Assembly (NCBI GenBank): GCA_903813345.2
Contig: CAIIXF020000012.1
Span: 26,486,684-26,550,683 of the forward strand
Length of the DNA: 64,000 bases
Direction of reading: 5' to 3'
Origin: Owenia fusiformis
Lineage: Eukaryota; Annelida; Polychaeta; Sabellida; Oweniidae
Position 1 is the stretch's first letter; every line of letters begins with the position of its first letter. The position numbers and the translations under genes are program-made. Below the pieces are notes generated by a model. That model had not been told where the DNA came from and made no database searches. It worked only from the letters and a program-made list of their open reading frames with translations. Positions 1,855-63,820 of the stretch are shown one piece after another.

Positions 1855-2029
1855 CCTCTACACTCACTAGAATACAGATGTTCATTTTCACAGATTTTAC
1901 TGTATCCACAAAATCCTATCTTTCCAATAGGATAAATCTGCATTTAAGTGTGGAAATATGGAAATAATCTTATCTCAATTTTGCCTAAACGTTTTAGCAC
2001 TCTTTGACTGAGATTAATAGTATTGTACC

Positions 2030-3690
2030 AAGGAACATTCTTTAGATAAAGTACTATAAAACTAGAAACAATATCTCTATAAAATATGGTAAAACAAGAA
2101 ACATTCTCTAGATAAGGTACTGTAAAACAAGGAACAGTCGCTCTTTAAAATACTGTAAAACAAAAAACATTCTCTAGATGAAGTACTGAAAACAAGAAAC
2201 AATCGCTCTATAAAATACTGTAAAACAAGAAACATTCTCCAGATAAGGTACTATAAAACAAAAAACAATCGCTTTATAAAATATGGTAAAACAAGAAACA
2301 TTATCTTGATAAGGTACTGTAAAACAAGAAACAGTCGCTCTTTAATAAAATACTGTAAAACAAGAAGCATTCTCTCGATAAGGTACTGTAAAACAAAAAA
2401 CAATTGCTTCATAAAATACTGTAAAACAAGAAACATTCTCCAGATAAGGTACTATAAAACAAAAAACAATCGCTCTATAAAATACTGTGAAACAAGAAAC
2501 ATTCTCTAGATAAGGTACTGTAAAACAAAAAACAATTGCTTCATAAAATATTGTAAAACAAGAAACATTCTCCAGATAAGGTACTATAAAACAAAAAACA
2601 ATCGCTCTATAAAATACTGTGAAACAAGAAACATTCTCCAGATAAGGTACTATAAAACAAAAAACAATCGCTCTATAAAATACTGTAAAACAAGAAACAT
2701 TCTCTAGATGAAGTACTGAAAACAAAAAAACAATTGCTTTATGAAATACTGTAAAACAAGCAACATTCTCCAGATAAGGTACTATAAAACAAAAAACAAC
2801 CGCTCTATAAAATACTGTAAAACAAGAAACATTATCTTGATAAGGTACAGTAAAACAAGAAACAATATCTCTATAAAATATGGTAAAACAAGAAACATTC
2901 CCTAGATAAGGTACTGTAAAACAAGAAACAATCGCTCTTTAAAATACTGTAAAACAAGAAACATTCTCTAGATGAAGTACTGAAAACAAAAAAACAATTG
3001 CTTTATAAAATACTGTAAAACAAGCAACATTCTCCAGATAAGGTACTATAAAACAAAAAACAACCGCTCTATAAAATACTGTAAAACAAGAAACATTATC
3101 TTGATAAGGTACTGTAAAACAAGAAACAATTCTCTGTAAAATGTGGTAAAACAAGAAACATTCTCTAGATAAGGCTCTGTAAAACAAGAAACAATCGCTC
3201 TATAAAATACTGTAAAACAAGAAACATTCTCTAGATGAAGTACTGAAAACAAAAAAACAATTGCTTTATAAAATACTGTAAAACAAGCAACATTCTCCAG
3301 ATAAGGTACTATAAAACAAAAAACAACCGCTCTATAAAATACTGTAAAACAAGAAACATTATCTTGATAAGGTACTGTAAAACAAGAAACAATAACTCTA
3401 TAAAATATGGTAAAACAAAAAACATTCTCTTTGATAAGGTACTGTAAAACAAGAAACAATAACTCTATAAAATATGGTAAAACAAAAAACATTCTCTTTG
3501 ATAAGGTACTGTAAAACAAGAAACAATAGCTCTATAAAATTCTGTCAAACAAGAAACAATCCCTAGATGAAGTACTGTAAAACAAGAAACAATCGCTCTA
3601 TAAAATACTGTAAAACAAGAAACATTCTCTAGATAAAATGATAGAAACATTATTGAGATAAAATTCCTTAAACTAGAAACAATCCAAATA
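2030..3690. repeat. 67-bp minisatellite/satellite array (about 25 units)
   Basis: Each unit of about 67 bp consists of two related halves of about 33 bp: 'acattctctagataaggtac' with 'tgtaaaacaa', then 'caatcgctctataaaatac' with 'tgtaaaacaa'. Variant halves (for example 'cattatcttgataagg') recur at intervals, so there is some higher-order order. Units decay at both edges. Several long reading frames on the minus strand are only the translated repeat. Confidence 0.93.
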
Positions 3691-31029: not shown

Positions 31030-31515
31030 ATCTAATGGTTGTTTTATGCGATCACTGCTCTCAATATTCTAAATAAATGGTTTCACTATTTTGCGTTTCT
31101 ACACAATTTAGAGAATGACTTCATGCATTTTTACTGAATATTCCTCCCTAATTTCACTCTTTAACTTATTTTGCATTTCTACACAATTTAAAGTACTGAT
31201 TTCGTGCCTTTTTACTATATATTCCTTGCTAATTTCCCTCTTTAACTTATTTTGCACTTCTACACAATTTAAAGTACTGATTTCATGCCTTTTTACTAAA
31301 TATTCCTCGCTAATTTCACTCTTTAACTTATTTTGCATTTCTACATAATTTAAAGTACTGATTTCATGCCTTTTTACTAAATATTCCTTGCTAATTTCAC
31401 TCTTTAACTTATTTTGCATTTCTACACAATTTAAAGTACTGATTTCATGCCTTTTTACTAAATATTCCTCGCTAATTTCACTCTTTAACTTATTTTGCAT
31501 TTCAAAACATGAACT
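31030..31515 (-). repeat. Family C copy locally amplified into an 81-bp array
   Basis: Five units start at 31099, 31179, 31260, 31341 and 31422 ('ctacacaatttaaagtactg', 'atttcatgcctttttac', 'taaatattcctcgctaattt', 'cactctttaacttatttt'). The unit is the left part of family C in reverse orientation, followed by the family's 'gcatttcaaaacatga' flank. Because 81 is a multiple of three a 157-residue minus-strand frame stays open; I regard it as a by-product. Confidence 0.88.
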
Positions 31516-34754: not shown

Positions 34755-35430
34755 AGTATTCACCTCTTTCAGGTTAACATACATAAGTGAACACCTTAAT
34801 TACCTCTTTCAGGTTAACACACTTAAGTGAACACCTCAATCACCTCTTTCAGGTTAACACACTTAAGTGAACACCTCAATCACCTCATTCAGGTTAACAC
34901 ACTTAAGTGAACACCTCAATCACCTCTTTCAGGTTAACACACTTAAGTGAACACCTTAATTACCTCTTTCAGGTCAACACACTCAAGTGAACACCTCGAT
35001 TACCTCTTTCAGGTTAACACACTTAAGTGAACACTTTAATCACCTCTTTCAGGTTAACACACATAAGCGAACACCTTAATTACCTCTTTCAGGTTAACAC
35101 ACTCAAGTGAACACCTCGATTACCTCTTTCAGGTCAACACACATAAGTGAACACCTCAATTACCTCTTTCAGGTTAACACACTTAAGTGAACACTTTAAT
35201 CACCTCTTTCAGGTTAACACACATAAGCGAACACCTTAATTACCTCTTTCAGGTTAACACACTCAAGTGAACACCTCGATTACCTCTTTCAGGTTAACAC
35301 ACATAAGTGAACACCTTAATTACCTCTTTCAGGCTAACACACATAAGCGAATACCTTAATTACCTCTTTCAGGTCAACACACTCAAGTGAACACCTTAAT
35401 TACCTTTCAGTCTAAAATACTAAGTGAACA
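34755..35430. repeat. 40-bp minisatellite, about 16 units
   Basis: Unit 'ttacctctttcaggttaac' plus 'acacttaagtgaacacctcaa', highly regular. Variant positions (cttaag / ataagc / ctcaag) recur in the same order in the blocks near 34980-35110 and 35160-35290, so groups of units were duplicated together. Confidence 0.93.
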
Positions 35431-35865
35431 CCTTGATATGTTATTTTTAATTCTCTTCAAAGTGAATGACTATAGTACATGGTGCAGGCAAAGATAAAAA
35501 AATGAATTGACATAAAATCCTTTGAGTTCCAGATATTTACAGTAGTTACTCATAAGCATTGCTTTTTTGTCAGAAGAATCAGGTCTTGGAAAATATTACA
35601 TGTACTTCCGAAAATTTCTTTTAAGTGAAGCAATAAAACTGAACACTGACAAAGTCAAATGAATTGGCATAAAATCCTTTCAGTTCTGGTTATTTACAGT
35701 TACTCATAGAACATCTAGCACACTTGGGGTGAAATTCTCTATTCATTTTCTTCAATTAAAGCGTCTTTTAGTTCAACTCATGAGTAAATAGAAGTACAAG
35801 CAAAGATAAATAATTGATTTGCCACCTGGGAAAATCATACAAATAATTCCACTTTATAAAGCCAA
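35430..35865. other. Short internal duplication, otherwise nothing
   Basis: 'ttgacataaaatcctttgag' near 35507 and 'ttggcataaaatcctttcag' near 35662, each followed by 'ttcyrg.tatttacagt' and 'actcata', are two copies of a stretch of about 155 bp. No gene was seen. Confidence 0.5.
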
Positions 35866-38756: not shown

Positions 38757-39461
38757 ATTTTCAGTCTACACTGACATCACAGGCATATTGGTTCATTTTT
38801 ACAATTTTCAGTCTACACTGACATCACAGGCATATCGGTTCATTTTTACAATTTTCAGTCTACACTGACATCACAGGCATATCGGTTCATTTTTACAATT
38901 TTCAGTCTACACTGACATCACAGGCATATCAGTTCACTTTTACAATTTTCAGTCTACACTGACATCACGGGCATTTCGGTTCATTTTTACAATTTTCAGT
39001 CTACACTGACATCACAGGCATATGGGTTCATTTTTACAATTTTCAGTCTACACTGACATCACAGGCATATCGGTTCATTTTTACAATTTTCAGTCTACAC
39101 TGACATCACAGGCATATCGATTCATTTTTACAATTTTCAGTCTACACTGACATCACAGGCATATCAGTTCACTTTTACAATTTTCAGTCTACACTGACAT
39201 CACAGGCATATCAGTTCATTTTTACAATTTTCAGTCTACACTGACATCACAGGCATATCGGTTCATTTTTACAATTTTCAGTCTACAGTGACATCACAGG
39301 CATATCCGTTCATTTTTACAATTTTCAGTCTACACTGACATCACAGGCATATCGGTTTATTTTTACAATTTTCAGTCTACACTGACATCACAGGCATATC
39401 GGTTTATTTTTACAATTTTCAGTCTATACTGACATCACAGGCATATCGGTTCATCTTTACA
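38757..39461. repeat. 47-bp array, exactly 15 units
   Basis: Unit 'ttcagtctacactgacatca' plus 'caggcatatcggttcatttt' plus 'tacaatt'. The period holds at 47 with no indels and only scattered single-base changes, so this is the most homogeneous array in the window. Confidence 0.96.
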
Positions 39462-46254: not shown

Positions 46255-47610
46255 TTAGCGTGTAATTTTGAATTTTCAAAAGGGTGGCATGAAATTTACT
46301 AGTTACCAAAAAGGGTAGCATGTAATTTTCTAATTTTCAAAAAGGTGGCTTCTAATTTTCTAATTTTCAAAAAGGGTGGCACGTAATTTTCTAATTTTCA
46401 AAAGGGTGGCTTCTAATTTTTCAAAAGGTTAAAGTGTAATTTTCTAATTAACAAAAGGGTAGCATGTAATTTTCTAAATTTCAAAAGGGTGGCTTCTAAT
46501 TTCCAAAAGGGTGGCATGTAATTTTCTAATTTTCCAAAGGGTATAATTAATTTTCTAATTTTCAAAGGGGTGGCTTTTAATTTTCAAAAGGGTGGCATGT
46601 AATTTTCTAATTTTCAAAAAGGTGGCTTCTAATTTTCAAAAGGGTAGCATGTATTTCTACTCAAAAGGGTGGCATGTTATTTTCTAATTTTCAAAAGGGT
46701 GGCATGTTATTTTCTAATTTTCAAAAGGGTGGATTGTAATTTTCTAATTTTCAAAAGGGTGGCATGTTATTTTCTAATTTTCAAAAGGGTGGCTTCTAAT
46801 TTTCAAAAGGGTGGCATGTAATTTTCTGATTTTCAAAGGGTGTCTTCTAACTAATTTTCTCATTTTCAAATGGGTAGCATTTTCTAATTCAAAAGAGTGC
46901 CATGTAATTTTCTAATTTTCAAAAGGGTGGCATGTAGTTTTCTAATTTTCAAAAAGGTGGCATGTAATTTTCTAATTTTCAAAAGGGTGGCTTCTAATTT
47001 TCTAATTTTCAAAAGGGTAGCATTTTCTAATTCAAAAGGGTGCCATGTTATTTTCTAATTTTTAAAAGGGTGGCATGTAATTTTTTCTAATTTTCAAAAG
47101 GGTGGCATGTAGTTTTCTAATTTTCAAAAGGGTGGCATGTAATTTTCTAATTTTCAAAAGGGTGGCATGTAATTTTCTAATTTCCAAAAGGGTGGCATGT
47201 AGTTTTCTAATTTTCAAAAAGGTTGCATGTAATTTTCTAATTTTCAAAAGGGTGGCTTCTAATTTTCTAATTTTCAAAAGGGTAGCATTTTCTAATTCAA
47301 AAGGGTGCCATGTTATTTTCTAATTTTTAAAAGGGTGGCATGTAATTTTTTCTAATTTTCAAAAGGGTGGCATGTAGTTTTCTAATTTGCAAAAGGGTGG
47401 CATGTAATTTTCTAATTTTCAAAAGGGTGGCTTCTAATTTTCTAATTTTCAAAAGGGTAGCATTTTCTAATTCAAAAGGGTGCCATGTTATTTTCTAATT
47501 TTTAAAAGGGTGGCATGTAATTTTTTCTAATTTTCAAAAGGGTGGCATGTAGTTTTCTAATTTTCAAAAGGGTGGCATGTAATTTTATATTTTTCAACAG
47601 GGTGCAGCAC
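46255..47610. repeat. 30-bp satellite array with higher-order units
   Basis: Monomer 'aattttctaattttcaaaag' plus 'ggtggcatgt'. A truncated variant, 'agcattttctaattcaaaag', recurs at about 47019, 47284 and 47459, i.e. 265 and 175 bp apart, a difference of three monomers, showing block duplication. Units are less regular before 46700. Frames across it are repeat translations. Confidence 0.93.
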
Positions 47611-53074: not shown

Positions 53075-53545
53075 AAGATTTCAATGTGAGAAGTGATATA
53101 AACACTGCCATCTTTTGGATTTTATAGTTAGTTTTTTTCTTTTAGAAATCAGTCTACACACGTGCCATCTATATTCAGATATACAGCTGTGATTACATTG
53201 AATTGCATTGACTGGGGTTTAGAATTTGACATGGGATTAAATATGATGATTATTTAGGATATACAAAATGTGAGAATATTAAAATTGAAATTTAGAAATG
53301 CATCAAGGCAAGCTGTTGAAAGACTTCCTGGAAATGCTTAGATTGCTCAATTTTGAAGGTATAAATATAGAAAATTTCTGTGGGGAGGCTCAGGCCCCTC
53401 TTTCATGTCTTTAGAGTTCGCATCGCTTGCATGAATTGGGTCAATTGGGTCTATATAATTAATGTTTTTGCAAATAATTTTTAATTTTAGGATAGAATCT
53501 GAGTATTATTAATTGAATCATAAAGTCACAAGGTAAAGGGTATTA
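53075..53545. other. No gene or family copy seen
   Basis: AT-rich sequence upstream of the zinc-finger-like segment. Confidence 0.3.
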
Positions 53546-53547
53546 TC

Positions 53548-53796
53548 ATGCCACGCCCTCCTAAAGTTAAGAGGTACCTCCCAGAATGGGAAAACACATA
53601 CCCCTGGCTGCAGTATGTTGCAGGCCAAGGAATGCAGTGCAGTTTATGCATCAGGGCTGGAAAGAGGAACATTTTCACAAGCCGAAATGGGTGCAAAGAC
53701 TTTCAAATGGCCTTGGATGTGACATTCTGTAACGCCTTGTGTATAAACGTTACTTATTCATCATTTACACTTGTACAATCTGACCCCAGGGTCTAA
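53548..53796 (+). CDS. N-terminal zinc-finger segment of a hAT-derived protein (partial)
   Basis: Starting from ATG, the first 53 residues read like the N-terminus of hAT-associated zinc-finger (BED/TTF-like, ZNF862-like) proteins. There is a basic start (PRPPKVKRYL), a W....YPWL aromatic motif at residues 14-22, a CSLC metal-binding pair at 31-34, GKRNIF at 38-43, and GCKDF at about 48-52. The second metal-binding half (normally H..H or H..C further on) is not there: from residue about 54 the sequence loses resemblance and stops at 82. Either a splice donor follows near 53708 that I cannot place, or this is a detached fragment. The family assignment comes from memory of the motif, not a search. 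No further domain, such as a hAT dimerisation region, was seen downstream. Confidence 0.45.
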   Translation: MPRPPKVKRYLPEWENTYPWLQYVAGQGMQCSLCIRAGKRNIFTSRNGCKDFQMALDVTFCNALCINVTYSSFTLVQSDPRV

Positions 53797-56594: not shown

Positions 56595-56680
56595 TTAAAA
56601 TGGAGTTACTGGTGCAATAGTGTCAGTACCAGAGCTTTTATCGTCATCTCCTCTATCATTGCAGCATGTGCCAAGATAGT
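56595..56680 (-). CDS. Possible terminal coding exon with 3' untranslated region
   Basis: On the minus strand a 'gcctattctag' acceptor at 56681-56691 is followed by a frame reading D-Y-L-G-T-C-C-N-D-R-G-D-D-D-K, then SSGTDTIAPVTPF and TAA (56595-56597). About 310 bp further on an AATAAA signal (56283-56288) follows, giving a plausible untranslated region. The acceptor's pyrimidine tract is poor and no upstream exon was found, since the next sequence upstream is the repeat at 56715-57440. It may be a real 3' end or chance. Confidence 0.28.
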
Positions 56681-56714
56681 CTAGAATAGGCATGTATAAA
56701 ATAAAATGACATCT

Positions 56715-57440
56715 TACATTTTGACGAGCACCTTAACCATGGTTATCAAATGAAAGGTAAAGGGTTTCTTTATTGATACTGAGATTTGCCAAGATGAAAA
56801 AGGTGTCGAAGTGACTTTTTGGGTAAAAAATGTGTTTTTTGCAAAAAATCTTTTTAAATTGATAAAAAATATTTTTGAAAACTTATTATATAAAATATTG
56901 TCTAGTTGACTCTCAAAAGTCGAAATATACCATGTTTAATCAACTTGGGGGGGATTTTGGGACATTAATAGTTTTTTCTTTGGGATTTGCATGCAATATC
57001 ATCTAAAACGAGTGTGTTCAAAATATGATGACAACGTTAACACATTTTGACGAGCAGCTTAACCATGGTTAATAATTGAAGAGTAAAGGGTCCCTTTGTT
57101 GATACTGAGATTTGCCAAGATGAAGTAGGTGTCGAAGTAAGTTTTTGGGTAAAAAATGAGTTTTTGCAAAAATAAGTTTATGTTAAAAAAAAACATTTTT
57201 AGAAAAATTATTATATGAAATACAGTCTTGTTGACGAAATATACCATGTTTAATCAAGGGTTCCTTTATTGATACTGAGATTTACCAAGATGAAATAGGT
57301 GTCAAAATGTGTTTCGGGTGAAATGCGTTTTTACAAGAGAAATTCAAAAATTGAAATATCTTTTTTGAAATTAAATTTTAACAAATATAGTCCGATTGAT
57401 TATAACAAGTGAGAACAACTATTTGTTATCAATTTTGAGA
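56715..57440. repeat. Three-unit tandem repeat of diverged units (about 180-320 bp)
   Basis: Units begin near 56727, 57046 and 57257. All share 'tttattgatactgagattt', 'ccaagatgaa.taggtgtc', 'gggta.aaaatg.gttttt' and 'aaa.ttattatat'. The first two also share 'gacgagca' with 'ttaaccatggtta' and the closing 'ataccatgtttaatcaa'. The middle frame on the minus strand is repeat translation. Confidence 0.78.
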
Positions 57441-57534
57441 GATTTTCGAAGCTGTTTAAGGTATTGTCTTGTGGTTTGTATCTTGCGAATTCAAACGCAC
57501 TTGAATTAACGTTACTGCAAGGAGTTAAGGGGGT

Positions 57535-57710
57535 TGCGGTTGGTGCGATCTCAACCCCACCCAAAAAATACAACCAATAAAAGAGATGAGAGTTTTAGAA
57601 TGCTTTTTGAAGTTTCTAGCTCAATTTTGAAGGAGTTGCACCAATTTTTAAAATAATACGATCGCAGCCTCCCCCCTCAGCTGGTAGAAAGCGGGCTATG
57701 GCCCTGCTAT
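57535..57710 (+). repeat. Family I repeat, longest copy
   Basis: 'ttggtgcgatctcaacccc', 'aatacaaccaataaaag', 'tagaatgctttttgaagttt', 'ctagctcaattttgaaggag', 'gatcgcagcctccccc', 'gggctatggccctgc'. Confidence 0.72.
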
Positions 57711-57714
57711 GTAT

Positions 57715-59215
57715 ACCCTTTGTTTTATGTATATTCCAGTTCAAACGTTAGTTAATGAAAACACCATATAATTATCTGTGATGTAGTGGATATCTACAAT
57801 GAATATTTTAATGTATCCTCTATTACAAGCTGAAGATACGTGGTCAATGAAATTTGTAAAAATTGATCATAAATAGGAAATCCTTTGATACAAAATCTTC
57901 TTTAAAATACTTCTCTCAATCAAATTATCACTAGCACTGAAAGCATCACCATTAACAATCTTAATTGTTGATTCAAATAGTATTTAATATTAACAATTAG
58001 CAAAGATTTGAACTGCATCAATCTGTTATCATATTTGCACCTAGCAGTACATTTGATCCTAGACACTGGGCTCATTGGCACTGACCAATAAGCGTTGCAT
58101 TCCATTGTGCAGTGTATGTCTGGTATGAATGTAGAACTCATCATTAATACAAGTACATTTGACATATATTTTAATGTGATTTTTACCTTCATCTTCTATT
58201 TCATAATTATTCTCATTTATTTATTAACTGTAATTTCATTGGTACCATCAATTTTAAATATCAAGCATGTTACGAAAACTCTTTGTTACAGTCATGGCAC
58301 ACAAGTCAAGATCAAGACCAAGTATCCTCTTAGCTTGGTACATCAAAATATCCTTTCTTAATTGCACTGTTCAGTCCTTCAGATAAAGACGGTCTAAGGG
58401 CTCCTAAGTGAGCGCTCTTTGATCTTGTCTCAACATACACTTGCTGACACACTTTGTTTATTCGCAACAATTTATTACCCCAGTTTTAGGTTGTTGGATT
58501 GAAATTTGATTCCATCACAGGGAAAGTTCATATGCTGACTGGAAGAAATACATGTGTGTATATGTACTCTCAGTCCATTTCAACATATTAATCAAAATTA
58601 GATTAAATGCAAATTGGAGTTAATAATTATGAGAAACAAGAAGTAGTAAGTGGATCCCACAATTACTGTATGTGTGGTTATCACAGTTTTTCGTCAAAAA
58701 GAGTAGCTTTCACAGCTTTATCATTTAAAATGAATTGAACCCTGTTTTGTCAGTCAAAATATTACTTGGGATGTACCAAATGTTTATCTGACACAATATT
58801 ACTTGCTATATTTCTTCAAGAACTTATGCTATTTTTATGTAACATTGTACAACAAAGTCACAACATTGCTAAGATATGTTTCAATTAATCTTATATTGAA
58901 CAGAATTGTAAAATCCTAAGTGTGTTAATTAACTAATATAATTTCATGTTGTCTAAATGGTACATCCCATGTTGAACTAACTAACTTTAACCTTCCACAA
59001 AGGGTTTGAATAATATCATATTGAATTTAGGTTTAATTATGGAGAGTCTTAATATGCAAGTTATAACCATGAAAAAGGGGTATCACAAGTTTTTTACAGT
59101 TTCTTAGACATAATTCAATAAGCGCAGGTAAATCATCAAACTTCAAAAGGTTTTTTGGCTCATACAGTGAGCTTATGGGATCTACTAAGCATCTGTATGT
59201 TGGTCAGTCCATCTA
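57715..59215. other. No supported gene in about 1.5 kb
   Basis: AT-rich, no arrays and no copies of the families described. The frames at 57920-58192 (-) and 58095-58361 (+) overlap on opposite strands and have no splice or motif support. Confidence 0.35.
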
Positions 59216-59224
59216 TCCATTGGT

Positions 59225-59226
59225 CC

Positions 59227-59324
<98 letters not shown>
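59225..59324. repeat. (TCTG)n microsatellite, about 25 perfect units
   Basis: Uninterrupted tetranucleotide run ending 'ctgtcaatattgg'. The Cys-Leu-Ser-Val frames through it are artefacts. Confidence 0.98.
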
Positions 59325-59325
<1 letters not shown>

Positions 59326-59444
59326 AATATTGGCCGCACGAATTAAAATTGCTATCTGATTAAGTGATATCCAAATTCATGTCATCACCATTTCAATATC
59401 TATCACACAAAGACACAAAACGGAACTGGAGGAAAACTCTATTT

Positions 59445-60137
59445 AGGTGCGGAAACTCACTTTTATCAATTAGCGATTTTGATAATTATCAACTATCGAT
59501 AATTTTTATCAATAAGCGATAAATTTGATAATTATCAATTATCGATAAATTTGATAATTTTGAAACAGGGCACACATGATATTAGCATAAGCTGATAATA
59601 TCAGATAAATTTGATAATTATCAAAATTATCGCTAGCGATAAATTTGATAATTATCAAAATTATCTGCTATTATCAGCTAATGCTAATTTCTCTTGGGCC
59701 CATTTCTTGGTAAAATGTGACCCAGACCAAAATTTTTTATCACTATTAGCGATAATTGAGAATTATCAAATTTATCGCTATAAGCGATAAATTTGATAAT
59801 TATCAAAATTATCTGTTTTTATCAGCTAATGCTAATTTCACTTGGGCCCATTTCACGGAAACATGTGACCCAGACCAAAATTTTTTTTATCGCTATTACC
59901 GATAATTGATAATTATCAAATTTATTGCTATTACCGATACAATAGCGATACATATGGTAATTATCACTATTAGCAATAACATTCAAATAACATGGGCTAC
60001 AGGCAAAATGATTTTTCAGATTTAGACAAAATTATCAGAATTAGCAAAACTTTTATCAATTTTTGTTAAAAACTCCCATTGAAATAACATGGGGGCTGGA
60101 GAAATTAGCAAATAAAAGTGACTTTCCGCACCAACCT
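59445..60137. mobile_element. hAT-like non-autonomous element packed with GATAATTATC palindromes
   Basis: Inverted ends GGTGCGGAAACTCACTTTTA at the left and its near-complement (GGTGCGGAAAGTCACTTTTA) at the right. Flanks CTCTATTT (59437-59444) and CTCTATTG (60138-60145) match at 7 of 8, fitting an 8-bp duplication. Between 59460 and 59970 the palindromic words GATAATTATC, TTATCGATAA and AGCGATAAATTTGATAAT recur in both orientations. A block 'gctaatttc.cttgggccca' with 'tgtgacccagacc' appears twice. hAT assignment is inferred from duplication length. Confidence 0.75.
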
Positions 60138-60139
60138 CT

Positions 60140-61200
60140 CTATTGGTAAGTAACATGTTTAAATTATAAATACACATTAATGCACGAGAATTTAAAATCA
60201 TTTCAAAAAATTACACATTCTGTAAAGAGAATTGTATCCAAGCAACTATGAATATAGATTAACCAATTTATGGTAAGACAATCATAAGGATAGGCAGAGT
60301 AAGTATATGTTCAGAAAGAAAGAAAGATTGAACTAACAACCTTTAAATCTTGAAATCCTGTAGTCTAAAGTTCTTGCAGATTAAAAGCCAGTATATAGTT
60401 ACTAGTAAGTGTAATACACATACCGGTATACACTGGCCAAATTAGAGGCAAGCAGTCAGCAGTGAGCTAGCAGAGATACATGTATCTAGTTTCATTACAG
60501 CAGAGTTTCAAACTGTCCATAATTCACAAGTAAAGGCTTGGTGACAGATTGTAACTAAATATCTAAACATAGCTAGATAAAGTTAATGGGTTTTTCAGAG
60601 GAGAGTTCGGGTTTATCTGACTGACTGTGTTGTGTGTCTAGCTCAGGCAATGTGTGAGAAGATGTTTACTCAAGTAGAGAGGGGGGGGGTCACAGAGGCT
60701 TGAAGCAAGACTACCTTATTTAACACATAATACAACGTGACTTGATTATGGGTTACTTACAGCAAAGTAAAATAACCATTCCGTATATCAAATAAGCATG
60801 TACTTCTGTGTGATAATTATAACAGACTTATAAATACAGTATGAGAGAATCTGAGGAGCAGACAATGCTGCAATGCTGTAGTGTGATTCTGATTATTGGG
60901 TTTACTAGTTCAGTAAAATTAATCAAACCAGATTGAGTAATGTAATCTATGGATTTTTCAAAACACTGGCACATGTCCAGCATGAAACAATTGACACATT
61001 GACCATATAGCTGTTTTGGCATTTAAGTGGTGATCAACACTGGTTGTATTGATTGAACTAGTTAAGAAATGAGGAATGCTATACTAATTAATCGTCTAAT
61101 TAGTGCCTTTCGACACCTCGTTCACTTTGGCAAATCTCACAAATCGTTTGTAAGATATAAAGGATTATTTTGATACAGGTCTCTATGGTGCTCGCAAAAA
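60140..61200. other. Intergenic stretch downstream of the minus-strand gene
   Basis: No gene was seen. A partial family J end ('agagagggggggggtcacag', 'aggcttgaagcaagactacc') lies at about 60676-60714. The gene's 3' untranslated region must begin at 61218 and run leftwards; I could not fix its polyadenylation site. Confidence 0.4.
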
Positions 61201-61218
61201 TGTAAGAACTCTCTCTTT

Positions 61219-62608
61219 CTAGAGGCTTTTATTTTGAAAATATTCTAGACTAAGATCAGCAATTTTTAAGGTGCTTTCAACCAAACCCCTCAGCCTTGCT
61301 ATTTCTTCTTTTAACTCATCTGAAATGAAACAAAGACAGTTCTTCAGACATAATCCTCGATGCTTGTCCCTTCTCACCAGCCGTGTGTTCGGAGGAGGGA
61401 TTATCAACAACATTATAATAACATCAAAAATCCTATTGTCTAATCAGTGAGGTTTAGTGAAAAGAATTGTATGGGTATAAGTCGTAACGTGAAGTTGCAT
61501 ACTACTCAAAATACAAACAAAGTATTAACATTCAAAATGTCACCACCTGCCATTTGTTACCGACCCCCGCCGAACACCATCCACTAAACTTCGAACACAA
61601 ACTACAGAACGCCGTCCAAAAAAAGTTTGAGACTATAACAATATGTCACCACTTGTGGTGGTAACATGAACCTCAGTGTTCCATACGATAAGGCTAATCC
61701 CGGGAGACTGATCGAGACAATATTGTGTTCTAGTCCAGGGGTTCTAGTAATGGGCAACGCCCATAGGCCTTTATCCATGGCAAAAACTTACCTATTTCAT
61801 TCTGAGCTCGGTCAGACATCTGGCGTTCCACCTCCAACTCTGTTTCTATGTGATCCTTTTCTTCCCTCAAAGTATCTGGAAAAATAATTTTATTTACTTA
61901 TTTTCTTTGACCTCAGTTTTGCGTGGTCCATCAAATGGAAATGCACATTCTTAAAGTGTATCTCAGGGGTAACTCTGAAAATTGATATTTCAAAAGAATG
62001 GGTAAAGGTAGATCGAAAAAGTTTTAAATGCTTAGATATGATATCATCGTAGTTACTGAAACTCGAAGAAACGAAATCAAACTGATGGAATGAATAGAAT
62101 GGCATACCTCTTTCAGCAACTGCCTCAGATAACCTGTTGGCCACGACGAATGAAAACTCATTCTCATCTGAAAAAATAATTATTTTTCATTTATCTTATA
62201 TTACATATACCAGTTACTGATAATATAATATATAATTCGCACGTTAACTTCCAATCTCTGCTTAATGCGGAGTTAGAAAATAACCAAGCAATTAGGGAAA
62301 GAAATCATCAAATCCAATTTATTGAAGCATCATGAGATCCAACCTTGACATCATGAGATCCAACCATGACATTTTGAGATCAACCATGACATCATGAGAT
62401 CAGCCATGACATCTTATTTCTTCTCATCCCTGAGATGCATGTTTTAGGTGAAACAGAAATATGCTGAGTATCAAAATGATATTGACTGCTTACTTTCGTA
62501 ATGCTCAGGAATAGATAAGTCAGTTCCAATCTCCATGATATTTGTGCGTTTCTTTGAGAAAATCATTCTCAATCGTCTCCATGCTTTTTGTACTTTCTTT
62601 ATTGCCAT
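61219..62608 (-). CDS. Four-exon gene for a 119-residue basic/coiled-coil protein, family unknown
   Basis: Coding exons, in transcription order: 62608-62494 (115 nt), 62167-62108 (60 nt), 61875-61792 (84 nt), 61319-61219 (101 nt, ends TAG). Donors are GTAAGC, GTATGC and GTAAGT; acceptors are ttttttcag, tttttccag and tttcatttcag. All three introns (326, 232 and 472 bp) are phase 1 and the joined frame is open for 119 residues. The ATG has A at -3 and G at +4, with an in-frame stop five codons upstream. Residues 4-21 are basic and amphipathic (KKVQKAWRRLRMIFSKKR). A linker follows (MEIGTDLSIPEHYE), then NEFSFVVANRLSEAVAER, then from about residue 60 to 106 a charged heptad-like helix (REEKDHIETELEVER, DELKEEIARLRGLVESTL), ending LEYFQNKSL. 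No signal peptide or membrane span is seen. A cytoplasmic or nuclear oligomerising role is inference. I do not recognise the family. A family D repeat sits in intron 3. Confidence 0.75.
61525..61675 (+). repeat. Family D copy 10, inside intron 3 of the 119-residue gene
   Basis: 'gtattaacattcaaaatgtc', 'accacctgccatttgttacc', a 'gaacaccatcc' block, 'gtttgagactataacaatat', 'gtcaccacttgtggtggtaa'. Complete and antisense to the gene; it leaves both splice sites of the intron untouched. Confidence 0.85.
62326..62412. repeat. Short CATGAGATCCAACCATGA minisatellite in intron 1
   Basis: Four to five units of about 20 bp, 'catcatgagatccaaccatga', with one shortened unit. It lies within the first intron of the minus-strand gene. 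Confidence 0.75.
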
Positions 62609-62619
62609 CTTTATCTGAT

Positions 62620-63115
62620 TTTATTTATTTCAAGTGAGAAATTAAAACCACAACTGCTATCTCATCAAATTCCTAACTTTGGATACAATGTTATTGTTAT
62701 CTTTATATCCATGACGATTTCAACGATTCTGATTGGTCATGAGAATAATGCACACTATGACATCATTGAACATTTTTTAGTATAGATGTGTTTTGATGTG
62801 ACGTAATGGTATCAACAACTTTTGAACAGTGACGTCATTTCAAAATCACACTAGCAACCAGTTGACGTTGTGTTAACAATCAGAATATACATCGAACAGT
62901 GGACCTTATAATTCACGGTACCCTGCATTTTATCCTTTCTATTTACGAAAGTCTGACCCTGGTTTTTAATAACAGAGAAAGTGTTACAAAGAAACTAATA
63001 AAATATCTATAGTGATTCTAAGGCGCCATGATACGTTTATAGGGAGACGTAAATTCCAAATTCACGTTCAAATGATTGTTTGATTATTTTATCATATATT
63101 TTAACCAAATAAAAG
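62620..63115. other. Upstream region of the minus-strand gene
   Basis: No further exon could be joined. A weak acceptor-like 'aaaatcag' lies 6 bases before the ATG, so a spliced 5' untranslated exon is possible. No TATA or other promoter motif could be called with confidence. Confidence 0.35.
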
Positions 63116-63119
63116 GGGC

Positions 63120-63820
63120 GTGGCTAGGATCCATGTTAATAGGCGAGGGACCCATATCTAGAGTTTTTTTTCTTTAAAATGGGACCTACATCTAGGGATT
63201 TTTCGGCGAAAGGTGACCCAAGGTGACCCACCCACACAGCGGCACGTCCCCATATAGCCATAGCTTCCATCAAAGTAACTACAAATTAATGTAGTTGTGC
63301 AACAGTGAAGTTCGTTGACAGGCCTGTATAAACAGACACTAAGTGTGACTAAAATTGCAAGCGTAATTCCCTACTAAATAATTCAACCAAGTGTGGACAT
63401 TTGCATAATATTTAATTTAAAAATGTTAATTGGAACTAAACAATAGGAAAATTAATTTTTAAACCAAAACCACCAAGAAAATTAAAGTTTCTAGTTTCTA
63501 GGGATTTTTTTCATCAAAATGGGAACCATTTTTGCTTCAAAATGGGACCCACATCTTGGGATTTTCGGCGAAAAGTGACCCACTTTAGAGGCACTTCCCC
63601 ACGGGTTCCGTCAAGGTAACTAGTTGTGGAACAGTGAAGTTGATAGGCCTGCATAAACAGACAATAAGTGTGACCAAAATTGCAAACGTAATTACCTCCT
63701 AAATAATTCAACCAAGTGTGGACATTTGCATAATATTTAATTTAAAAAATGTTAATCGGAAATTAAACAATAGGAAATGAATTTTTAAACCAAAACCACC
63801 AAGAAAATAAAAGTTCCGTC
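63120..63820. repeat. Tandem duplication, two units of about 330 bp
   Basis: Unit 1 (about 63150-63485) and unit 2 (about 63500-63815) share 'aatgggacc.acatct.ggga', 'ttttcggcgaaa.gtgaccca', 'gcctg.ataaacagaca', 'aattcaaccaagtgtggaca', 'tttgcataatatttaattta' and 'ttaaaccaaaaccaccaaga' in the same order, with few differences. 'gacaggcctg' at 63318 is part of the unit and not a family B end. Confidence 0.88.

Follow-up and report, generated by a model that had tools for sequence, protein, structure and literature searches.

The closest described counterparts of the protein considered here are coiled coils. The leucine zipper of JIP3 (PDB 4pxj) has a heptad-like charged pattern like that of the window protein (E 0.061), and the strongest match of any family member is that of a remote relative, the C6 protein, to the Apg6 coil (Pfam PF17675; E 7e-5, 23.7 bits, cut-off 45); both, however, are sub-threshold and cover the coil alone. 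In bZIP transcription factors, as in the window protein, a basic segment is followed by heptads, but in the window protein this segment lies ~30 residues away from the coil. Sequence and Pfam scans found no basic region directly before a leucine zipper in the window protein, and Pfam bZIP_1 was seen only in the C6 coil (E 0.1). Judged against the full IQ calmodulin-binding motif, IQxxxRGxxxR, the segment VQKAWRRLRMI is by inspection without the G and the last R, and no match of the window protein to Pfam IQ or, for a CRIB/PBD domain, to Pfam PBD was listed at E <=10. Searches of Pfam, NCBIfam and PDB with the window protein, of Pfam with six family proteins and of PDB with a five-member profile gave sub-threshold matches only, mostly to coiled coils. 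Scans of viral and prokaryote contigs yielded no relative, which is unsurprising if the gene is of animal origin, and in the literature searched neither peptide strings nor a matching microprotein turned up. The family would therefore count as unrecognised in Pfam, NCBIfam and PDB, where it matches nothing above threshold, in keeping with an earlier note on this DNA that could place the protein in no family. The window, that is the whole stretch of 64,000 nt analysed, is C12:26486684-26550683 of a 498-Mb genome from Owenia fusiformis. The Owenia fusiformis assembly is given as 505.8 Mb in 12 chromosome-scale scaffolds with 26,966 annotated protein-coding genes (PMC9977687), so the window gene may already be annotated. 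As a whole, the locus is best explained as a minus-strand four-exon gene of a small dispersed family, the exon 4 of which appears to have been cut recently by a transposon (probability about 0.85).

The window gene comprises exons of 115, 60, 84 and 101 nt, together 360 nt, that encode 119 codons and a TAG. Its introns measure 326, 232 and 472 nt, and all three are GT..AG and phase 1. At the start ATG, position -3 is A and position +4 is G; 15 nt 5' of the ATG, at 62623, an in-frame TAA begins. The parts of the gene are as follows.

62494..62608, minus strand: exon 1, 115 nt (38 codons + 1 nt), encoding the basic amphipathic helix MAIKKVQKAWRRLRMIFSKKR and the motif GTDLSIPEHYE
62108..62167, minus strand: exon 2, 60 nt, phase 1-1; equal length in C3, C8a, C8b, C11 and C6, 48 nt in C10
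61792..61875, minus strand: exon 3, 84 nt, phase 1-1, coiled coil; equal length in C3, C8a, C8b, C11, C6 and C10
61517..61670, minus strand: dispersed repeat in intron 3, holding 38 of 41 genome match rows
61219..61319, minus strand: exon 4 as read, 101 nt
61253..61319, minus strand: host-derived part of exon 4, coiled coil up to residue 109; homology to exon 4 of C3, C8a and C8b
61219..61252, minus strand: transposon-derived end of the frame, SLEYFQNKSL + TAG; AATAAA starts at 61233

The repeat in intron 3 also occurs at several other places in the window and at 38 other genomic places.

To score the model we used a small exon-chaining gene-finder with an amino-acid composition score and generic splice matrices. 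This exact model scored highest in the window (38.8) under both intron limits tried. Top scores in 30 dinucleotide shuffles were <=23.6 with introns of <=600 nt and <=28.1 with introns of <=1500 nt, and the reversed, non-complemented window gave <=14.4 and <=20.2, respectively. An initial setting with a longer acceptor pyrimidine tract did not recover the model whole, and the tract was shortened only after that miss; the ranking is therefore support, not proof. Stronger and independent backing comes from paralogues with matching internal exon lengths and phases, and on these sequence comparisons the four-exon model is confirmed as a real animal gene. Two claims of the earlier note are thus borne out: the four exons with canonical splice sites, three phase-1 introns and a 119-codon frame, and the improbability of a chance assembly. 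A check it had proposed, a search for relatives with the same intron phases, turned up paralogues within the genome itself.

Relatives were sought by protein searches of this genome alone. Exons 1, 2 and 3 were found in the correct order at C3, at two loci on C8 (C8a and C8b) and at C11, and a remote member was found at C6.

C3:6671209, minus strand: paralogue, 140 residues, four exons
C8:32625845, plus strand: paralogue, four exons, no stops
C8:36165535, minus strand: paralogue, four exons, no stops
C11:15991996-15992590: pseudogene, closest in sequence to the window gene
C6:24381724: remote member, exons of 118/60/84 nt, phase 1; 163 residues including a fourth exon

The C3, C8a and C8b genes have exons of 115/60/84/164-170 nt, phase-1 introns throughout and no stops, and their proteins of 140, 142 and 141 residues are 61-66% identical to the window protein (exon 1 alone: 72.5%, 70% and 62.5%). 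They share with the window gene the 115/60/84-nt exons, the three phase-1 introns and common promoter modules, but their exon 4 is uninterrupted and gives them 140-142 residues and an acidic tail. The window gene itself has the family's ~115-nt exon 1 with basic helix and GTDLSIP, the 60- and 84-nt phase-1 exons and the CRE/CCAAT/CGTCATGG promoter, with fewer full CREs than C3, C8a or C8b. An acidic C-terminal tail is absent from its exon 4 as read, where transposon sequence stands in its place; conservation across the family proteins is lowest in this tail. In the C11 copy, exons 1-3 and the exon 4 acceptor are still present, but exon 1 contains a TAA, the beginning of exon 4 is missing and nothing matches the promoter, so we regard this copy as a pseudogene. 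The C6 gene resembles the window gene in its 118/60/84-nt phase-1 exons, in MGAKKRMQKVWARIRNFF...VGTDLAIEE and in upstream CRE/CCAAT/CGTCATGG sites; it differs in another tail and in an identity of 36% over the aligned part, and its E in the whole-genome protein search was only 1.23. C10 (exons 115/48/84; E 0.11) and C2 (133/147/1323; E 1.46) have the N-terminal helix pattern alone in common with the family. Since the long gene-finder chains at C6, C10 and C2 enter repeats and retrotransposon sequence, only their first exons were used. Altogether, the searches show a small dispersed family made up of the window gene on C12, C3, two C8 copies, the C11 pseudogene and the remote C6 gene, with C10 and C2 as tentative members. 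At C2:6220836 there is a larger gene model, with an N-terminus (MGFKKLRSAWKRLKIFFTKKK) and a CRE-bearing promoter that resemble the family and a 1.3-kb third exon of repeated acidic EFHINLDFLDEDDDD units.

Upstream of the ATG, the window gene aligns with C3 (71% over 272 columns), C8a (71% over 213) and C8b (65% over 272) with E of 9e-28 to 3e-37, so that ~270 bp of promoter are kept in four copies. For C11, no significant promoter match to the window gene was found within 320 bp upstream. The CRE, CCAAT, forkhead and X-box labels used for these sites are putative.

62705..62878, minus strand: conserved promoter, aligned with the upstream regions of C3, C8a and C8b
62878-62867, minus strand: promoter element TGTTAACACAAC
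62859-62851, minus strand: promoter element GGTTGCTAG
62837-62830, minus strand: full CRE TGACGTCA
62806-62798 and 62765-62755, minus strand: two CRE-like sites
62737-62729, minus strand: CCAAT box ACCAATCAG
62716-62705, minus strand: CGTCATGGATAT core

Without mismatch, the distal TGTTWACACAAC..GTTGCT module occurs at exactly four genome loci, and these are C12, C3, C8a and C8b; allowing two mismatches adds five further places genome-wide, and a reversed control gave 11 places at <=2 mismatches. The pattern CCAATCA-N11-16-CGTCATGG was found at 7 genome places, 4 of them in the family (C12, C3, C8a and C6), with none for the reversed control; C8b, which carries CGTCAAGG, was missed by one base. 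At the three remaining places, two on C1 and one on C4, the 2 kb examined contain no full CRE and tblastn of the four exons gave weak hits only (best E 0.028), so these matches are regarded as coincidental or unrelated. Within 600 bp upstream, full CREs number 1 in the window gene, 2 in C3, 4 in C8a, 2 in C8b, 1 in C6 and 2 in C2, and none in C11 and C10; two of three CRE positions in the window promoter are without the full TGACGTCA that C8a has. Since these promoter elements are common to the paralogues, the exon at 62608 is likely to be the true first exon and the gene to be regulated. Forkhead-like (TGTTTAC) and X-box-like (GTTGCT) sites adjoin the CREs, which provides a lead, and only a lead, towards a ciliary or sperm role. 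Upstream of the promoter, 63166-63489 and 63529-63815 form a direct duplication that is 79% identical.

Homology of exon 4 to C3, C8a and C8b stops at 61255, 61256 and 61252, respectively, and picks up again at 56674. The interval between has the features of a DNA transposon, with inverted terminal repeats, a short target duplication and further copies with matching ends.

56677..61252, minus strand: transposon insertion, 4576 nt, ends TAGTCTAGAA...TTCTAGACTA, 3-bp target duplication TCT
58372..60627, no strand assigned: nested insertion in the transposon, an extra 2256 nt missing from the C8 element
56595..56676, minus strand: stranded original end of exon 4, GTCCNDRGDDDKSSGTDTIAPVTPF + TAA

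The inverted ends align, with gaps, over ~130-140 nt. A complete copy of 2316 nt lies at C8:34293120-34295520; it has the same ends as the window element and AAG flanks on both sides, a 3-bp target duplication as is TCT in the window. It is the closest among the matches listed: in an alignment of 2321 columns, 2 substitutions and 2 gaps of one base each set it apart from the window element (~0.1% divergence). In a genome search with the 5' arm, 20 of the 44 other rows listed start exactly where the element does, and 31 start no more than a few bases from that point; as the arm searches scored 40 of 256 and 40 of 130 candidates, element copy numbers are lower bounds. No transposase of its own was found in the insert, where the longest stop-free stretch is 96 codons, and the frame at 57923-58195 has no Pfam match up to E 1. 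By comparison with the C8 element, the extra 2256-nt segment is a later, nested insertion; its part at 60627-60300 matches other genomic places. The nested borders show a 4-base overlap, suggestive of a 4-bp target duplication, and the segment holds a (GTCT)n array at 59223-59325 along with other tandem repeats. Elsewhere in the window there are long tandem arrays with units of tens of bases (2029-3639, 31087-31503, 34762-35434, 38757-39461 and 46261-47604), and at 53524-53793 on the plus strand a frame like a C17orf113-type zinc finger (Pfam E 1.6e-5; its 25.1 bits fall short of the curated cut-off, 29.5).

When the insert is removed in silico the flanks join in frame, giving a tail, GTCCNDRGDDDKSSGTDTIAPVTPF, that is like those of the paralogues and a protein of 134 residues. 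The stranded tail itself is homologous to C8a over 56674-56637 and to C3 over 56633-56554. The insertion thus swapped the last 25 residues for ten transposon-encoded residues (110-119), a stop and an AATAAA. Because the final 30 nt of coding sequence and the stop codon belong to the transposon, the window gene no longer has its ancestral form, although its reading frame is complete. What the earlier note had called a complete gene therefore stands as an open frame with a stop, while the claim fails for its end; and of the two identities it had offered, that of a microprotein falls away, as the protein is no stand-alone one, and that of a short form of a larger gene comes nearer the truth, the protein being a truncated member of a family of 140-163 residues.

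Codon comparisons show less replacement than synonymous change across exons 1-3. For exons 1-3, NG86 dN/dS is 0.11-0.21 in all six pairs among C12, C3, C8a and C8b. Exon 4, compared over the 22 codons that the copies share, yields looser ratios, ~0.14-0.38 in five of the six pairs and near 1 for C3-C8b (0.226/0.236). Between the window gene and C11, exons 1-3 differ at 35 positions, 6 of which fall on the window branch and 18 on the C11 branch, with 11 unassignable; the synonymous:replacement counts are 5:1, 5:13 and 3:8, respectively. The contrast of 5:1 and 5:13 is borderline (two-sided Fisher p = 0.050), and the window branch alone departs from neutral expectation with p 0.003 under simple 2:1 transition weighting. 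For this pair NG86 gives dN 0.106 and dS 0.335, and YN00 gives dN 0.130 and dS 0.197, a much weaker contrast than with NG86. Given its ~0.1% divergence from the C8 element, the insertion in exon 4 is evidently recent relative to the window-C11 split (NG86 dS ~0.33). The selection signal is therefore largely older than the insertion and would have acted mainly on the longer, pre-insertion protein; as such it is no demonstration that the truncated form works.

Both ends of the protein have the character that the earlier note gave them, a basic amphipathic N-terminus and a heptad-patterned C-terminus. The N-terminus is cationic; when its residues are shuffled, 161 of 10,000 permutations attain the moment of residues 2-19, and single-sequence prediction of exon 1 alone gave a helix at residues 2-31 (mean pLDDT 77.9) with hydrophobic residues at 3, 6, 10, 13 and 17. 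One heptad register fits residues 50-100, and 8 of 5000 shuffles did as well; the fit has 26/5000 for residues 45-100 and is weaker for 45-112 (280/5000). Net charge is ~+8.5 on residues 1-25 vs -10 on 40-119. Tentatively, and with the odds somewhat against us, we propose that the family proteins are small cytosolic adaptors that would pair as dimers through the C-terminal coiled coil, while the N-terminal cationic helix would dock on an acidic membrane or calmodulin; alternatively, the basic helix may fold back on the acidic coil as an intramolecular clasp. The truncated copy appears to keep helix and coil and to have lost only the variable acidic tail, so that a short but functional protein might still be made from its transcript; we consider the chances of this about even.

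The window copy may be a dead or dying allele, with its acidic tail destroyed and its frame still intact merely for lack of time. Over 2.3 kb the transposon and its C8 copy differ by only 2 substitutions and 2 gaps of one base, which makes the insertion too young for stops to have accumulated, and C3, C8a and C8b have the tail and could cover for the window copy. Against this, frame, splice sites, promoter and coiled coil are all intact, the part lost is the one that varies most within the family, and the transposon provides a stop and an AATAAA; we place this alternative a little short of even odds. Another reading, a complete lineage-specific microprotein of 119 residues with its present C-terminus as the selected one, has in its favour an open frame, a favourable start context and a promoter of its own, but it is very improbable given that residues 110-119 are encoded by a transposon of which a near-identical copy exists at another locus, and that the C3, C8a and C8b tails are longer and different.

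A splicing rescue, in which exon 3 would be joined to an acceptor at 56680 (ACTATCTTGG), within the transposon's 3' end, to give ...NEIDYLGTCCNDRGDDDKSSGTDTIAPVTPF with the exon 4 coil skipped, is quite unlikely. The phase of this acceptor fits both exon 3 and the stranded tail, but a third of sites would be in frame by chance, its score is modest (~10% of the 3361 minus-strand AGs are as good), and a 5.1-kb intron would be needed vs 0.2-0.5 kb for the three introns of the window gene. That open stretches came together by chance, with no gene at all, is suggested by the error-prone nature of single-sequence splice prediction and by the gene-finder setting that first missed the model; it has to contend with the score against shuffles and the reversed window, with three other stop-free loci that share internal exon lengths and phases, and with a conserved promoter. 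We regard its probability as negligible, and in practice paralogue exon layout and promoter conservation appear to refute it. The preferred reading remains a family gene cut in exon 4 by a transposon. Going further, the locus could represent a family, so far unnamed and restricted to one lineage, of coiled-coil adaptors driven by CREs, one copy of which has very recently taken a new, working C-terminus, a stop and a poly(A) signal from a transposon. We think this unlikely; if true, the replacement of a gene end would be seen here in its first stage.

Reading raw sequence by eye thus recovered a small gene that is real but owes part of its apparent completeness to a transposon. The analysis adds an unrecognised gene family of three close copies that are intact, the truncated one in the window, a pseudogene and a remote member, and with it a built-in natural experiment, one family member without the acidic tail. 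Should the truncated copy be expressed, it would be a very young example of a mobile element that provides the ends of both a protein and its transcript; failing that, it is ordinary young gene loss within a redundant family. In comparison with known systems, small multi-copy coiled-coil genes are a known kind, and the truncation of a redundant copy by a transposon is a known process.
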